DNA of 62,559 nt, taken from the NCBI GenBank assembly GCA_937961455.1, contig CALGNN010000028.1, positions 1-62,559 on the forward strand, given 5' to 3'. The notes beneath the pieces were generated by a model. The model was not told the DNA's origin and did not search any database. It saw nothing but the letters and a program-made list of their open reading frames with translations. The stretch is from an uncultured Saprospiraceae bacterium. Its GTDB lineage: Bacteria; Bacteroidota; Bacteroidia; Chitinophagales; Saprospiraceae. Shown here one piece after another: positions 56,181-61,637 of this stretch (positions are counted from its first letter, which is position 1; every line of letters starts with the position of its first letter). A program made the translations under genes and the position numbers.

Positions 56181-56214
56181 AAGACTGGCTGAGCACATTT
56201 GCTCAGCCAGTCTT
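56181..56214. terminator. Perfect 15-bp hairpin terminator between ddl and luxR-type gene
   Basis: AAGACTGGCTGAGCA (56181-56195) pairs perfectly with TGCTCAGCCAGTCTT (56200-56214) around CATT. The A run before it gives a U-tract on minus, so it best serves the minus-strand gene ending at 56244, and perhaps both. Confidence 0.8.
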
Positions 56215-56243: not shown

Positions 56244-56441
56244 TTAAAGAGCTCCTGATTCGAATGCTCTTCTTACTAAACCAGCGGTATTTTTTGCGTG
56301 AAGTTTAATTAATAAACTTCTTCGGTGCGATTTCACTGTATTTGCGCTGATGTACAATTTTTCAGCAATTTCATCGGATGACATTTCTTGAGAAATCAAT
56401 GTTAGAATCTCAAATTCTCTTTTGGATAAATTACTAGTCAT
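56244..56441 (-). CDS. Stand-alone LuxR-type HTH protein
   Basis: 65 residues from the ATG at 56441, 1 bp after the upstream gene stops. It is only a LuxR/GerE DNA-binding domain: LSKREFEILTLISQEMS-DEIAEKLYIS, ANTVKSHRRSLLIKL. No receiver or ligand domain precedes it. Read together with the 97-residue gene upstream, it may work as a separate output module. It lies in the LytTR locus, behind one of the three LytTR-like boxes. Confidence 0.85.
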   Translation of the reverse strand: MTSNLSKREFEILTLISQEMSSDEIAEKLYISANTVKSHRRSLLIKLHAKNTAGLVRRAFESGAL

Positions 56442-56442
56442 A

Positions 56443-56736
56443 TCAATTGTTTTTTTTAAAAATCTGGAAGAAATCACCGTTTGAGATCATTTCTTCCAGT
56501 AAGGGTTTAATGGATTGGCTTGTTACAGATTCGGTTATCACCGAATTTGGGGCATACATATATTTATGTTGGGTTTTATATTTGTTGTATACGCGCTTGA
56601 GCACGGCTTTCATATTTAGCACACTCCCATAATAGATTTCTCCAGTATTGAGCCATACTACCACATCATAGGATTCTTCATCTCTAGTGGTAAAGTTCAC
56701 TTTGTCAATAAGTTTGTAATCATCAATTTGATTCAT
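56443..56736 (-). CDS. Small unknown protein upstream of the LuxR-type HTH
   Basis: 97 residues, no signal peptide or TM segment. Short beta-strand-like stretches (YDVVVWLNTGEIYYG) then helices. I do not recognise it. The gap to the LuxR-type gene is one base, so the two form a bicistron. Its upstream region carries a LytTR-like direct repeat (56793-56822), about 57 bp before the start codon. Confidence 0.7.
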   Translation of the reverse strand: MNQIDDYKLIDKVNFTTRDEESYDVVVWLNTGEIYYGSVLNMKAVLKRVYNKYKTQHKYMYAPNSVITESVTSQSIKPLLEEMISNGDFFQIFKKNN

Positions 56737-56792
56737 TTAGCTCCTTTGAACTAAAATTGCTTATTTTTTAATTGTTAGGTGCACCCTATTGA

Positions 56793-56822
56793 ACCATCGG
56801 TATGATTTGGGACATAAAAGGT
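56793..56822 (-). promoter_or_regulatory. LytTR-type direct repeat, box 1
   Basis: On minus: ACCTTTTAT, 12-bp spacer, ACCGATGGT. Each half has one mismatch to the LytTR-type consensus [TA][AC][CA]GTTN[AG][TG]. The second half continues as TTCAATAGG, as in boxes 2 and 3. It lies between the RR1 stop and the small-protein start. Confidence 0.6.
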
Positions 56823-56836
56823 CATAATGATTTATT

Positions 56837-57541
56837 TTAAACACTCATTGCCATCGTCTTACTAGCTATGATTTGGTCAGACTTGAATAATATGTGATCT
56901 CTATGGTTTAAATTAAATATTACTGCATGGACCAATTTAAAAAACCCAAGAGGAGAAAGGATTTTATTCAACTCACCTAAGCTATAGTCACAGTAAATGA
57001 TTTCGTCATTATGCAATGTCAACTTCACTTTTTTATGTGCCCTTTCACAACATAAAATATCATTGGCTTGGACAAATACAATTCCGGTTGAGCAAGGAAG
57101 TCCAATTTTTTTGTAATGGTCTGAATGTGCTACATTATGCAGTAGCACTTTATTTCTAATGGAGGATACTCTTAGTTCAATCCTAGCTCTTGCTAGTGTA
57201 ATGGCTGTTTCAAGATCATCTTTATCAATGGGTTTTAAAATATATCCACAAGCTGAAAGCTTAATGGCTTGCATTGCATATTGATCATAGCCTGTGATAA
57301 AAATGATTTCAAATTGCGGATTAATAAGTTTTGAGAGAAGATCAAATCCAGATAGGCCAGGCATATTTATGTCTAAAAAAATAAGATCTGGTTGGAGTAC
57401 ATTCAGAACATCAATCGCCTGAAAAGGATCTCTTATGAGGTCTGATATATGGATATTTTCATCAATTTCTGTGACCAAATTTTGAATAAGTTTCAAAGAT
57501 TTTGGTTCATCATCAATGATAACAGCTGAAATGGTTTTCAT
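56837..57541 (-). CDS. Response regulator RR1 with diverged LytTR domain
   Basis: 234 residues from the ATG at 57541 (a reading from 57580 adds thirteen residues before the conserved start). REC is intact: VIIDDE, LIFLDINMPGLSG, TGYD, LKPI. The C-terminal LytTR part is diverged: CERAHKKVKL is kept, but VHAVIFNLNH replaces the usual VH-S-L-NL basic segment, and the terminal basic R-R-R-K stretch found in RR2 is missing. DNA binding may be weak. It has its own LytTR-like box and a TAnnTTTG -7 box. Confidence 0.88.
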   Translation of the reverse strand: MKTISAVIIDDEPKSLKLIQNLVTEIDENIHISDLIRDPFQAIDVLNVLQPDLIFLDINMPGLSGFDLLSKLINPQFEIIFITGYDQYAMQAIKLSACGYILKPIDKDDLETAITLARARIELRVSSIRNKVLLHNVAHSDHYKKIGLPCSTGIVFVQANDILCCERAHKKVKLTLHNDEIIYCDYSLGELNKILSPLGFFKLVHAVIFNLNHRDHILFKSDQIIASKTMAMSV

Positions 57542-57559
57542 GATAAAAGTGTTGTTCCA

Positions 57560-57567
57560 CAAATTTA
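57560..57567 (-). promoter_or_regulatory. -7 box of the RR1 promoter
   Basis: On minus, TAAATTTG matches TAnnTTTG. It starts 33 bp downstream of the right half of LytTR box 2 and about 20 bp upstream of the RR1 start. There is no -33 TTG at normal spacing, as expected for an activator-dependent promoter. Confidence 0.55.
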
Positions 57568-57599
57568 TCTGATCCAGCAAGAATTATAGGGCCTATCGA

Positions 57600-57629
57600 A
57601 CGAACGGTAGCCATGCCTGTATATACGGG
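57600..57629 (-). promoter_or_regulatory. LytTR-type direct repeat, box 2
   Basis: On minus: CCCGTATAT, 12-bp spacer, ACCGTTCGT. The right half fits the LytTR consensus fully, the left half only partly. The right half continues TCGATAGG, close to boxes 1 and 3. It lies between the RR2 stop (57636) and the RR1 start. Confidence 0.65.
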
Positions 57630-57635
57630 AGTGTT

Positions 57636-58382
57636 TTAGTTGATTTTATTTATGACTTCTAGAAAATCATTTTTACGTCTACGAGCTAAGGGCACCGTAG
57701 ATCCATCATCCATAGTTATCGTACCATCCTTATAGTACTTTTTAATTTTATTCAAATTGATAAGGTGAGACTTATGAACACTAAAGAAGGAATGACCAGA
57801 AAGCAGCTTAACAAACTCGCCAATATTGTATGAACTTATTACACTTTGCTCTCCTTCAATAATCACTCTTGTTATTCTTTGTAGTGCTTCACAACGAACG
57901 ATCTTATCTACTTCGGTAAATTCTAAGCCATCCATTGTTGGGATGCCAATCTTTCTATGTTTCTTTTTGTGGTCAGCTAAATTTTCGATTAAAATGCGAT
58001 TTTTTTCTAAGCTGATTTTTTCTTTTAATCTCAACTTTGCTGTAGTGATGGCCTCTTTTAAATCATCTACATCTACAGGCTTTAAAACAAATCCTGAAGC
58101 AGAAAATTTGAAAGCTTGTATAGCATAGTCATTATGCCCAGTGACAAATATGATCTCAAAATCTGGACGAGCAACTTTTACTAAAAAATCAAAACCTGAC
58201 ATTTTAGGCATATCGATATCCAAAAAAATAATCTCAGGCTTTAAGGTATCAATCTGATCCAAGGCTTTCTCAGCTTCGGTAAAAATCTCTAACACTTCAA
58301 TTTCTGGATCTAAGTCAATGATGACCTGTCGCAAAAATTTTGCAAGCTTAATTTCGTCGTCTATTATTATCGCTTTAATCAT
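57636..58382 (-). CDS. Response regulator RR2 (LytTR family)
   Basis: 248 residues. REC with IIIDDE, phospho-acceptor Asp55 (IIFLDIDMPKMSG), VTGHND and LKPV. Full LytTR domain: DGLEFTEVDKIVRCEA, FFSVHKSHLINLNKIKKY and VPLARRRKNDFLEVI. It starts 7 bp after the sensor kinase gene and is the obvious partner. It is the best candidate to bind the three direct repeats in this locus. Confidence 0.94.
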   Translation of the reverse strand: MIKAIIIDDEIKLAKFLRQVIIDLDPEIEVLEIFTEAEKALDQIDTLKPEIIFLDIDMPKMSGFDFLVKVARPDFEIIFVTGHNDYAIQAFKFSASGFVLKPVDVDDLKEAITTAKLRLKEKISLEKNRILIENLADHKKKHRKIGIPTMDGLEFTEVDKIVRCEALQRITRVIIEGEQSVISSYNIGEFVKLLSGHSFFSVHKSHLINLNKIKKYYKDGTITMDDGSTVPLARRRKNDFLEVINKIN

Positions 58383-58388
58383 ATATGC

Positions 58389-61300
58389 TTAAGAAGGAAT
58401 AAAAATTTTCACCATGGTTCCTAATCCTTTTCCTTCTTCATCTAATTTATCTATGTATTTAATGTCGATTTCTAAGTCTTCATCTTTTTTCAACACGGCC
58501 AATCGTTCATTTATTATTTGAGTGGCTCGAGATTTATGCTTTTTTACTGATTTTTTCTGAATCTCCTCAGTTTTAGCTCTTCCTACTCCATTGTCATCAA
58601 CCACACATAATATCCCTCCCTTTACCTTATCAATAGACATTTGTATAAAACCTTGTCTGGTCTCCAAATGATTTACTCCATGTAAAAGGGCATTCTCGAT
58701 AAAAGGTTGAATAAGCATTGAAGGAATTTCAAAATCATATAGATCTATATCCTCGTCGACATCTATATCATATTCAAATTTGTCTTCAAACCTTAACTTT
58801 TCTAATTCCAAATATAAGCTAAGCGTTTCAATTTCATCATGTAACGAAACACGCTCATGTTTGGATGCCTCTAAAAACTGCCTCATAAGCTTTGCAAATT
58901 TTGAGAGGTATTTAGCTGCTATATTTTTTTCATTGTTTTGGATGTAATATTGTATCGCCCCTAATGAATTAAAAATGAAATGCGGATTCATTTGTGATCT
59001 CAGAGCTTCCAATTTAGTTTCAGCAATTCTTTGATTCAATTCTGTCCTCTCTTGTGCTACTTTATTATTCCTCCTGATAATTTGCCTTGCAACAAAAAAT
59101 GAGATTGCCAAGGTCAATATGGCGATTAAAATATTTTGTAAAATTTGATCCCAGTTTCTTTGAATTTCAAGTGTTGCTAACTCAAATTCATCCTTATTCG
59201 ATTTTCTATTCTTAGCAATTAACTGAAAGGATCCTTGCTTTGGATGGTTGATTACAATCTCATCCCCTTCTCTTACAATCTCACCAATATTGGGATTGGT
59301 GAAAACTTCAAGCTTTTTTAGAATATTAAAATCCTTCGATTCACTAAATCCGAATTCTCTTAAATTAAAACGTATTTGATCTGGAATACCTTTAACACTG
59401 TAGGTGTTTTCATTCTTAGAAAATAGCAATTCATTATTGTTTTTAATGGATCTCAGTGCTGTAATAAAATATCCCTCCGGAATGTAGCTTTCATAAAAAG
59501 CTTTGGGATCAATTTGGCATACGCCATTGATGGATCCAAAGTAAATTTGTCCATCAAAACTACAATATGCGCCTCCATTAAACTCATGCGAAGGCAAACC
59601 ATCCTTGGCAGATAAATGGGTTATATTTTTAAAATCTTGGTTTAATAAATCAATACCATTAAATGTTGAAACCCAATAATTGCCTTTGTAATCTTTGACA
59701 ACTCCAGCTACTTGATTATTATTCAAAGAATTATTAATGTCTGCTTGCTTGATCAATTTACCTTCTATATCTAGATTTAGTAAGCCAGTGCCATAAGTAC
59801 TAAGAAATAAAGATCCATCAATTTTTTCAATATTTTTAACATGAAGACCTTCAGTACCTTCGATCGTTTTCATACCTGCACGTTCATTAAAAATGGGTAA
59901 CTTAATTAAGCCTTTGCTCGATGTACCAAGCCACAAACACTCATCTACCACAACAGATCTAAATACGGTATCAAGACCAAACTCCATATGCCTTTGTTCT
60001 TTTGTTTTGGTGTTTATCAAACTGACATATCCATATCCTCTATCTCTAACATTGTTCTTAATGTAGTATCCAACGATTACAAGATGATCCTCATCGAATC
60101 GCTTGACATCTTCTGTCCTTCCTCTGCATGGATACTTTTCAAAAGTATTGCTACTATGATCATAAGCTAAGATGCTCCCCTCCCTTCCTTGAAATTCCAG
60201 AATCCAGCTCAAATTAGTTTCTGGGTCATAGTACGATCTTGTGTAACCTTTATTCCTTTGGCTGTTGTCTAAGATGCTTACATCATTGACACCAGCTGAT
60301 GACATTTCATGTAGACCAGCAGTTTCATTTATATAATAAATAGTTGAATCATTGTTTCCGTATACAAATCTAGTCATCGCTCCAAATTCACTTTTACTTC
60401 TAGCTGGATTTTGTCCAAATTTCAATATCCCAGAGTTATTAAATTTGTAATGGTATACACCATAATGACTGCTGCAGAGTAATTCATTAAACATATCTTC
60501 AGAGTATACATCAATGAGAAATTCATTGCGCTCTAACACATTTGGCAAGTGTATGATACTGTCAGCTTTGCTCAAAATTTGCAATTCTTTCACCCTCTTA
60601 TCACTTGTATTCCCAAAAAGCAAAATGATATTAGACTGCAAGTCTTCGCTTATATTGATCAATTGCTTGTCATTTGGGACATGTTCGATCGTCCTGTCAG
60701 GAAGTAATTTATAATAGCCATATCCATCGCGAAAAGAAAAATAAGTCTTTCCCCTTTTTGTTGTTTTTAGAATTGTGGGATAGCTATTAAGCTGCGACTT
60801 TTTATAATTTGGCTGAATGAGTTGATGCGTTTTTCCTTGGTTGATTCGAAGATTTGCATCAACTAAGAATATCCATTCTGATGCATTTTTTGTGAAAGTT
60901 TTGAATGATAGGGTATCTGTAAATTCATGAACAAGATCAAAACTATCAACTGCCATATCATAACGATAAATGCTGTGTTGATTTTCTCTCTTTATAGCTT
61001 TTCCTTTAGCATCTTTTTTGCCATATTGATCTTCTGCACAAAGCACATAGAATTCATTTTCTATGTTTAATAGATCTCGAACATTATTTTGAATACCAGA
61101 GCATTCTTTAAATCTCCCCTCTTCTTTTTTTAATTGAAATAGTACATCTCCTGTTTGCGCAAACACCTCATTTGCAAATAAAGAAAATTTAGCAATGCTC
61201 CTAGGCAAATCATTACCAAAGGTTCCAATGAATTGATCTCCATCATATTCTTGAAGTTTACCTCCGTTTAAAAACCAATACTGACCACTTTGATCTCTGT

Positions 61301-61439
61301 CTAATTGTTTGACATGTCTGTCCTCTAATCCATCTTCTGAAGCGATCACCTTTTCTTGGATTACTTCGAAACGCTGGCCAAAAATGTTGCTAAGACCTAA
61401 GAAAAAAAACAATGATGTGAGTAGTAAAATATACTTCAT
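58389..61439 (-). CDS. Propeller sensor histidine kinase (LytS/His_kinase type)
   Basis: 1016 residues. Signal peptide (1-21), a periplasmic beta-propeller region (about 30-670, with reg_prop-like LWLGTSSKGLIKLP and YWVSTFNGIDLL), a YYY-like beta module (about 690-765), a TM helix (about 775-796) and a cytosolic kinase: coiled coil, QMNPHFIFNSLGAIQYYI with the phospho-accepting His, then HATPase (LIQPFIENALLHG, DDNGVG). It resembles AlgZ/LytS-type kinases. Upstream are LytTR box 3 and a terminator-like hairpin directly before the AUG. Confidence 0.93.
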   Translation of the reverse strand: MKYILLLTSLFFFLGLSNIFGQRFEVIQEKVIASEDGLEDRHVKQLDRDQSGQYWFLNGGKLQEYDGDQFIGTFGNDLPRSIAKFSLFANEVFAQTGDVLFQLKKEEGRFKECSGIQNNVRDLLNIENEFYVLCAEDQYGKKDAKGKAIKRENQHSIYRYDMAVDSFDLVHEFTDTLSFKTFTKNASEWIFLVDANLRINQGKTHQLIQPNYKKSQLNSYPTILKTTKRGKTYFSFRDGYGYYKLLPDRTIEHVPNDKQLINISEDLQSNIILLFGNTSDKRVKELQILSKADSIIHLPNVLERNEFLIDVYSEDMFNELLCSSHYGVYHYKFNNSGILKFGQNPARSKSEFGAMTRFVYGNNDSTIYYINETAGLHEMSSAGVNDVSILDNSQRNKGYTRSYYDPETNLSWILEFQGREGSILAYDHSSNTFEKYPCRGRTEDVKRFDEDHLVIVGYYIKNNVRDRGYGYVSLINTKTKEQRHMEFGLDTVFRSVVVDECLWLGTSSKGLIKLPIFNERAGMKTIEGTEGLHVKNIEKIDGSLFLSTYGTGLLNLDIEGKLIKQADINNSLNNNQVAGVVKDYKGNYWVSTFNGIDLLNQDFKNITHLSAKDGLPSHEFNGGAYCSFDGQIYFGSINGVCQIDPKAFYESYIPEGYFITALRSIKNNNELLFSKNENTYSVKGIPDQIRFNLREFGFSESKDFNILKKLEVFTNPNIGEIVREGDEIVINHPKQGSFQLIAKNRKSNKDEFELATLEIQRNWDQILQNILIAILTLAISFFVARQIIRRNNKVAQERTELNQRIAETKLEALRSQMNPHFIFNSLGAIQYYIQNNEKNIAAKYLSKFAKLMRQFLEASKHERVSLHDEIETLSLYLELEKLRFEDKFEYDIDVDEDIDLYDFEIPSMLIQPFIENALLHGVNHLETRQGFIQMSIDKVKGGILCVVDDNGVGRAKTEEIQKKSVKKHKSRATQIINERLAVLKKDEDLEIDIKYIDKLDEEGKGLGTMVKIFIPS

Positions 61440-61472
61440 AAAAAAAGGATACCCCTAGCTAAAGAGGTATCC
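61440..61472 (-). terminator. Terminator-like hairpin abutting the sensor kinase AUG
   Basis: On minus: GGATACCTC (61472-61464) pairs with GGGGTATCC (61455-61447) with one wobble, 8-nt loop, then U7 (61446-61440) immediately followed by the start codon (61439-61437). It would end transcripts from the sugar transferase gene and also lies in any leader for the kinase. Confidence 0.75.
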
Positions 61473-61566
61473 CAAGTTAACAAAATGGGCCTAATCATTT
61501 TACCTTATTGCTAAGGATTTAAGTTGGATAAATTTGGAACTTGGGGTTCAATGCTTGTTTATACAT

Positions 61567-61574
61567 CAAAATAA
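61567..61574 (-). promoter_or_regulatory. Possible -7 box of the sensor kinase promoter
   Basis: On minus, TTATTTTG differs from TAnnTTTG at one base. It sits 34 bp after the right half of LytTR box 3, the same distance as in front of RR1. Confidence 0.4.
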
Positions 61575-61607
61575 CGGGAATTGTACCGAAGGTGTTGAGA
61601 TCATTCA

Positions 61608-61637
61608 ACCAACGGTATATAATTTAACATCAACGGT
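61608..61637 (-). promoter_or_regulatory. LytTR-type direct repeat, box 3
   Basis: On minus: ACCGTTGAT, 12-bp spacer, ACCGTTGGT. Both halves match the consensus [TA][AC][CA]GTTN[AG][TG] fully. It starts 3 bp after the sugar transferase stop and lies about 170 bp upstream of the kinase start. Confidence 0.8.

Follow-up and report, generated by a model that had tools for sequence, protein, structure and literature searches.

Introduction

LytTR-type regulators recognize half-sites of the consensus [TA][AC][CA]GTTN[AG][TG], and a kinase of the PF06580 type is a defining trait of AlgZR-like systems. AgrA of Staphylococcus aureus pairs with a histidine kinase and autoregulates. This receiver-LytTR regulator has direct-repeat sites at agr P2 and P3, the promoter-proximal repeats being centred at about −60 of both promoters (PMC4227749). 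HdrRM and BrsRM of Streptococcus mutans are described as positively autoregulated, their promoters being immediately preceded by direct repeats of 9 bp that are mostly spaced by 12 bp, and the same account gives 11-bp repeats 11 bp apart for Bacteroides operons that resemble LytTR regulatory systems (LRS) (PMC6193735).

Here we analyse a signalling locus in a contig of 62,559 nucleotides (hereafter the window) from an uncultured Saprospiraceae bacterium, whose 4.62-Mb genome is assembled in 250 contigs. The locus resembles that of AgrA in combining a receiver-LytTR regulator with direct-repeat sites whose centre is likewise predicted at about −60 (PMC4227749), and those of HdrRM and BrsRM in having 9-bp direct repeats 12 bp apart and, as proposed here, autoregulation. 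However, HdrRM and BrsRM pair the LytTR regulator with a membrane inhibitor rather than a kinase and have different half-sites, for example ACCTCTTAG (PMC6193735). Unlike the AgrA system, the window carries a TAnnTTTG promoter of the Bacteroidota kind and an extended 3' core (about nnrAT). It differs further in having three distinct units, a second copy of the regulator whose DNA-binding domain is degraded, and a small protein from an unnamed family. Loci of Portibacter lacus and P. marinus (Saprospirales, Haliscomenobacteraceae in the NCBI taxonomy) share with it the order kinase, LytTR response regulator, box and small protein, with the same box, but they have no adjoining duplicated response regulator, no LuxR-type HTH gene was seen after their small protein, and a clear box stands only before the latter.

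The proposed mechanism is known in kind, as AgrA/HdrR-like autoregulation; what is new is the small-protein family and the decayed duplicate. A search of titles and abstract openings on LytTR operators returned none describing this operator or one in Saprospirales. With it, one regulator clade gains a testable operator at a fixed promoter distance, which renders the targets of the clade predictable from sequence.

Results and discussion

Three LytTR-type boxes precede separate units of one locus

The original prediction placed on the minus strand three sites, each with two 9-bp halves exactly 12 bp apart, a common extended core in the right halves and a separate unit behind each site, and all of this was found as described. 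On this strand, the order is sugar transferase, box 1, sensor kinase, response regulator A (RR A), box 2, response regulator B (RR B), box 3, 97-aa ORF and 65-aa LuxR-type HTH. Box 1 (61608..61637) lies upstream of the kinase/RR A unit, in which the kinase (58389..61439) has a Pfam His_kinase domain (PF06580) and a Reg_prop match at the cut-off, and RR A (57636..58382) consists of a receiver and a LytTR domain (52 bits). Box 2 (57600..57629) is upstream of RR B (56837..57541), with an intact receiver and a degraded LytTR domain (25 bits). Box 3 (56793..56822) stands before the 97-aa protein (56443..56736) and the 65-aa stand-alone LuxR-type HTH protein (56244..56441), whose start codon directly follows the stop of the 97-aa ORF; a terminator-like hairpin (56181..56214) closes this unit. 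A PF06580-type kinase thus adjoins a receiver-LytTR regulator in the window, as in LytTR two-component systems, and the presence of a kinase and of receivers sets the locus apart from LRS. An Rfam scan of the window at the gathering threshold returned two tRNAs and no other match.

Read along the minus strand, the halves are ACCGTTGAT-12-ACCGTTGGT in box 1 (61637-61608), CCCGTATAT-12-ACCGTTCGT in box 2 (57629-57600) and ACCTTTTAT-12-ACCGATGGT in box 3 (56822-56793), with a start-to-start period of 21 bp in all three. The spacing of two 9-bp half-sites is that of LytTR-type operators (12 bp, range 11-13), and the halves are close to the consensus, with left and right matches of 8/8 and 8/8 in box 1, 6/8 and 8/8 in box 2, and 7/8 and 7/8 in box 3. 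The earlier statement that a single box, numbered as the third, fits the consensus in both halves consequently holds for the site at 61608 and not for that third site.

We then scored the window with a 36-column matrix built from 18 strong sites (score of at least 15) of other genomes, the window being excluded. Among 125,048 window positions, boxes 1, 3 and 2 ranked first, second and third, at 21.4, 14.9 and 14.7 bits, respectively, the next best position reaching 10.5 bits; these ranks did not change with a matrix lacking both Portibacter rows (16 sites). Boxes 1 and 2 were used in neither the motif search described below nor the matrix, while the box 3 region was one of the 25 regions fed to that search and its counts were excluded from the matrix. 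The pattern ACCGWTSGTTSRAT, derived from the boxes, has exactly four occurrences in the genome (4.62 Mb), three in this locus and one within a 578-aa open frame. A looser two-half pattern, also derived from the boxes, has no further exact match in the same genome; allowing up to two mismatches, it yielded 34 matches, fewer than the 64 of the reversed control, and the number of mismatched matches in this genome therefore carries no meaning. A one-mismatch match on contig C78 (14.4 bits) falls within an open frame of 330 aa and was discarded.

We consider it highly probable that the boxes are operators of one LytTR regulator clade, through which RR A activates the kinase-RR A operon, RR B and the small-protein/LuxR-HTH pair. 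In such a circuit, a signal would reach the Reg_prop/His_kinase sensor and lead to phosphorylation of RR A. A dimer of RR A would then occupy both half-sites, which lie two turns of the helix from each other around a centre near −60, and recruit RNA polymerase to the TAnnTTTG promoter. The predicted targets would be its own kinase-RR A operon via box 1, which is the least certain of them, the tandem duplicate RR B via box 2, and the small-protein/LuxR-HTH pair via box 3.

A TAnnTTTG element lies at a fixed distance from the boxes

A −7-like element had been predicted 33-34 bp downstream of boxes 2 and 3; this was right, and the observation extends to all three boxes. The elements, all on the minus strand, are TTATTTTG at offset 33 from box 1 (61567..61574; 5/6 letters of TAnnTTTG), TAAATTTG at offset 32 from box 2 (57560..57567; 6/6) and CAATTTTA at offset 33 from box 3 (56752..56759; 4/6, the weakest of the three). 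In the training set, for which we took the 19 of 25 sites scoring at least 15, the match to TAnnTTTG peaks with 3.68 of 6 at offset 33 past the right half, the remaining offsets yielding mostly 1-2.6, with 2.95 at 32 and 2.82 at 38. Nine sites that do not enter the matrix again peak at offset 33 (3.78), followed by 32 (3.22), and six pattern matches inside open frames show no peak at offset 32-33, one of them having 5/6 letters at offset 35; this division into nine and six by coding context was made after the −7 letters had been seen. In Flavobacterium psychrophilum, the TAnnTTTG box is placed at −12 to −5 (PMC9723704). This reckoning puts the end of the right half near −46, and the whole site of 30 bp is predicted to lie upstream of the promoter, as LytTR operators do, with its centre at about −60.

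A terminator-like hairpin separates box 1 from the kinase gene

The estimated leaders measure 14 nt at box 2 and 11 nt at box 3 vs 123 nt at box 1, where a terminator-like hairpin of 11 pairs (61440..61473 on the minus strand, the hairpin itself at 61473-61446) carries a T tract that reaches the kinase ATG. This intervening hairpin makes the step from box 1 to the kinase the weakest link of the proposed autoregulation: either the hairpin acts as terminator of the upstream operon and transcription from box 1 passes through it, or box 1 may give rise to a short RNA or an attenuated leader. We regard as unlikely the second option, in which box 1, instead of driving the kinase, would produce a regulatory RNA of ~120 nt, or an attenuated leader, that stops at the hairpin. 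The T tract running up to the ATG and the length of this leader in comparison with the other two speak for such an RNA, as does the ability of a CCAAGUU stretch, in the centroid fold, to pair with AACUUGG beside the 5' arm of the hairpin. However, the leader fold has a z of just −1.7, with 10 of 200 shuffles equally stable, the hairpin could serve to terminate the upstream sugar-transferase operon, and no comparable hairpin turned up in a simple scan upstream of the kinase genes of both Portibacter species. Furthermore, a box precedes the kinase operon in one relative (G134) and sits between kinase and regulator in another (G086), which also argues against this option. No box was seen before the kinase of P. 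marinus. Upstream of that of P. lacus, inspection by eye revealed two degenerate half-sites, ACCTTTAAA and ACCGATGGA, 21 bp apart (L060, 3005-3034), with TATATTTA at offset 32; this pair lies 111 bp ahead of the kinase start and is not among the top matrix matches.

RR A belongs to the box-linked clade and RR B is its degraded duplicate

The genome that contains the window has 16 LytTR matches, and only two LytTR loci have the site within about 2.5 kb, their regulators both falling in one clade. The best site found in this genome outside the window (27.6 bits, contig C134) separates a LytTR regulator gene from a divergent LuxR-HTH gene of 72 aa, and has TACTTTTG at offset 32. The other 13 LytTR-domain regions of the genome (12 fetched and one in the window, with about 2.5 kb per side where the contig allows) have no matrix match above 12.0 bits; in three of the 13 (L194, L200 and L201), nothing matched the regulator profile. 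Phylogenetic analysis of 33 regulators grouped the 23 whose genes adjoin a box or the small-protein gene into a single clade (100/99, from a bootstrap that had not settled and with rows chosen by neighbourhood), to which the 10 further regulators from this genome do not belong. The 23 include the regulator of L073, a locus with no site in the motif search; the tree includes neither regulator fragments shorter than 181 aa (L051, L082) nor the L202-L209 regulators. Membership of this clade and its linkage to the box make RR A the likely ligand, and RR A therefore likely binds all three boxes.

RR A and RR B group together as sisters (98/88), with a branch of 1.32 for RR B vs 0.49. At the position of the LytTR signature, given as FhRhHRS in PMC4227749, RR A reads FFSVHKS and RR B FFKLVHA; RR B thus lacks the signature of DNA-binding LytTR domains. 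In addition, its VPLARRRK segment is missing or replaced, and the Pfam match to its LytTR domain covers just positions 2-67 of 98, while the receiver aspartates and lysine are kept. RR B, designated RR1 in the original prediction, probably serves as a target or modulator rather than as a regulator that binds DNA, and the simplest history that the sequences suggest would be a tandem duplication of the regulator together with its downstream box, followed by loss of DNA binding. It appears to be a regulator duplicate caught while losing this ability. Conservation of the receiver along with degradation of the LytTR domain would make RR B a probable source of negative feedback, draining phosphate or forming inactive mixed dimers.

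It is improbable that the boxes serve another regulator, be it a different LytTR protein or RR B, which would turn autoregulation into cross-regulation. The number of LytTR matches in the genome leaves room for it, and regulators of this type from one genome can co-regulate, as PMC6193735 describes for HdrR and BrsR in S. mutans; but the boxes of relatives adjoin members of the RR A clade, the 10 regulators outside this clade have no strong box nearby, and RR B is devoid of the signature residues.

The double half-site is conserved in relatives

The original prediction was staked on conservation of the repeats upstream of orthologous loci, and the operator reading survived this comparison. With a matrix made without Portibacter or window sites, the double half-site is the top match before the small-protein gene of both P. 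lacus (28.7 bits) and P. marinus (30.1 bits), the position orthologous to box 3. An unsupervised search of 25 regions upstream of small-protein genes retrieved the motif CCGtT.aTtccc..a..c...CCG.T.GtcaAAt, in which the two halves recur with a period of 21 bp and carry the extended core noted in the original prediction. Strong sites (at least 15) are present in 19 of these regions and weak ones (13.5-13.9) in four, with no site found in the remaining two (L057 and L073). The motif likelihood was 305.0 in a repeat run vs 105.0-117.5 in 12 shuffled sets. When the best pair of halves matching the LytTR consensus was sought in 30 upstream regions, the mean peaked at period 21 (12.97), compared with 11.57-12.23 for every other period between 14 and 30 and 11.85 in 200 shuffles (sd 0.15, highest 12.17). 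Separately, a second-best peak at 41 bp hints at a third half-site farther upstream. Two broken loci, that of G357, which is split over two frames (L079/L083), and the G044 copy (L084), were not counted among the 30 family loci; L053, L058, L080, L081 and L082 were removed before the motif search and kept in the period test, and some rows are close kin (L038, L040), so the counts are not independent. It is extremely improbable that the boxes are chance repeats within AT-rich intergenic DNA, a reading that can invoke short half-sites and the imperfection of boxes 2 and 3 but is at odds with their first three ranks under a matrix from other genomes, a motif likelihood far above that of shuffled sets and the constant distance from box to −7 element.

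A pattern scan of 298 family genomes with one mismatch allowed retrieved 19 places vs 14 for the reversed pattern, so the number alone proves nothing and the matches are separable by context only. Twelve of the 19 adjoin LytTR regulator, kinase or small-protein genes, six lie within open frames of at least 155 codons and one is non-coding with no LytTR gene nearby, as judged for matches of the forward pattern. Fifteen matches are outside the training set, and eight of these adjoin LytTR regulator or kinase genes, among them the boxes of G134 and G086. Outside the window, a score alone is no proof of a site, since the matrix reaches 21 bits at places judged coding or unrelated (L186, L202). Together, the conserved site upstream of the orthologous small-protein gene and the regulator- and kinase-linked sites in relatives support the autoregulated circuit that had been put forward for the locus.

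Elsewhere in the scanned DNA, a triple half-site array on the minus strand of L203 (4154) has TAACTTTC at offset 32. No LytTR regulator or kinase was found within 7.5 kb around it, and the array is possibly a distant target.

A small-protein family travels with these LytTR regulators

The operator points to an unannotated protein family that accompanies these LytTR regulators, the unnamed family of the 97-aa protein, which is often encoded directly after one of them. Counting its own genome, relatives of this protein were found in 3 of 198 genomes of the order with a single-sequence query, in 22 of 398 family genomes with a 3-row profile and 20 of 298 with a 24-row profile, and in 11 of 296 genomes across the phylum. 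A LytTR regulator gene lies directly upstream on the same strand in 23 of 30 family loci, at a distance of up to 543 bp in 22 of them and of 1,175 bp in one. Eight loci with distant relatives from other Bacteroidota families (L085-L092) have no LytTR neighbour in 4.5-5 kb and were set aside.

The 97-aa protein of the window has no Pfam match at 0.001, its relatives have weak sub-cut-off Pfam matches only (e.g., Imm8 at E 0.095), and the PDB yielded no credible relative, the best value being 0.092. An NCBIfam match at 0.03 was rejected as spurious, and a PADLOC match to PDC-S05 (E 0.0048), obtained with the window protein alone out of 24 family members, was not considered credible. AlphaFold2 modelling from three rows gave a pLDDT of 48.5, a value too low to justify looking for similar folds. 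A fusion to DUF7710 is seen in one family relative (L053, 1411-2019), and one distant relative is found among small ORFs that look immunity-like by impression (L091, 2478-2819).

A tentative and rather unlikely conjecture is that the 97-aa protein is a dedicated partner of the LytTR clade, belonging to a new family of feedback adaptors or inhibitors whose expression the regulator would induce and which would in turn act on that regulator, with RR B as a second, DNA-binding-dead brake. If this were true, Saprospirales would carry a self-limiting LytTR circuit with two feedback arms.

The LuxR-type HTH protein of the window and the 72-aa protein encoded on C134 are paralogues with 51% identity. 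Of 20 regions around LuxR-HTH genes, that of the C134 copy alone shows a strong neighbouring box (27.8 bits), which indicates that the LuxR HTH is no general part of the module; further matrix matches, of 12-21 bits, occur in L176, L183, L186 and L187. Including longer proteins, LuxR-type HTH matches number 28 in the genome of the window, 34 in G179 and 23 in G158. Stand-alone genes of this type, of 75-100 codons, abound in several genomes of the family and are exemplified by L170 (2880-3179), L180 (3054-3293), L182 (6491-6757), L185 (2942-3193) and L184 (2829-3053); each of these five is followed on its strand by a gene that, by eye, encodes a large and probably secreted protein.
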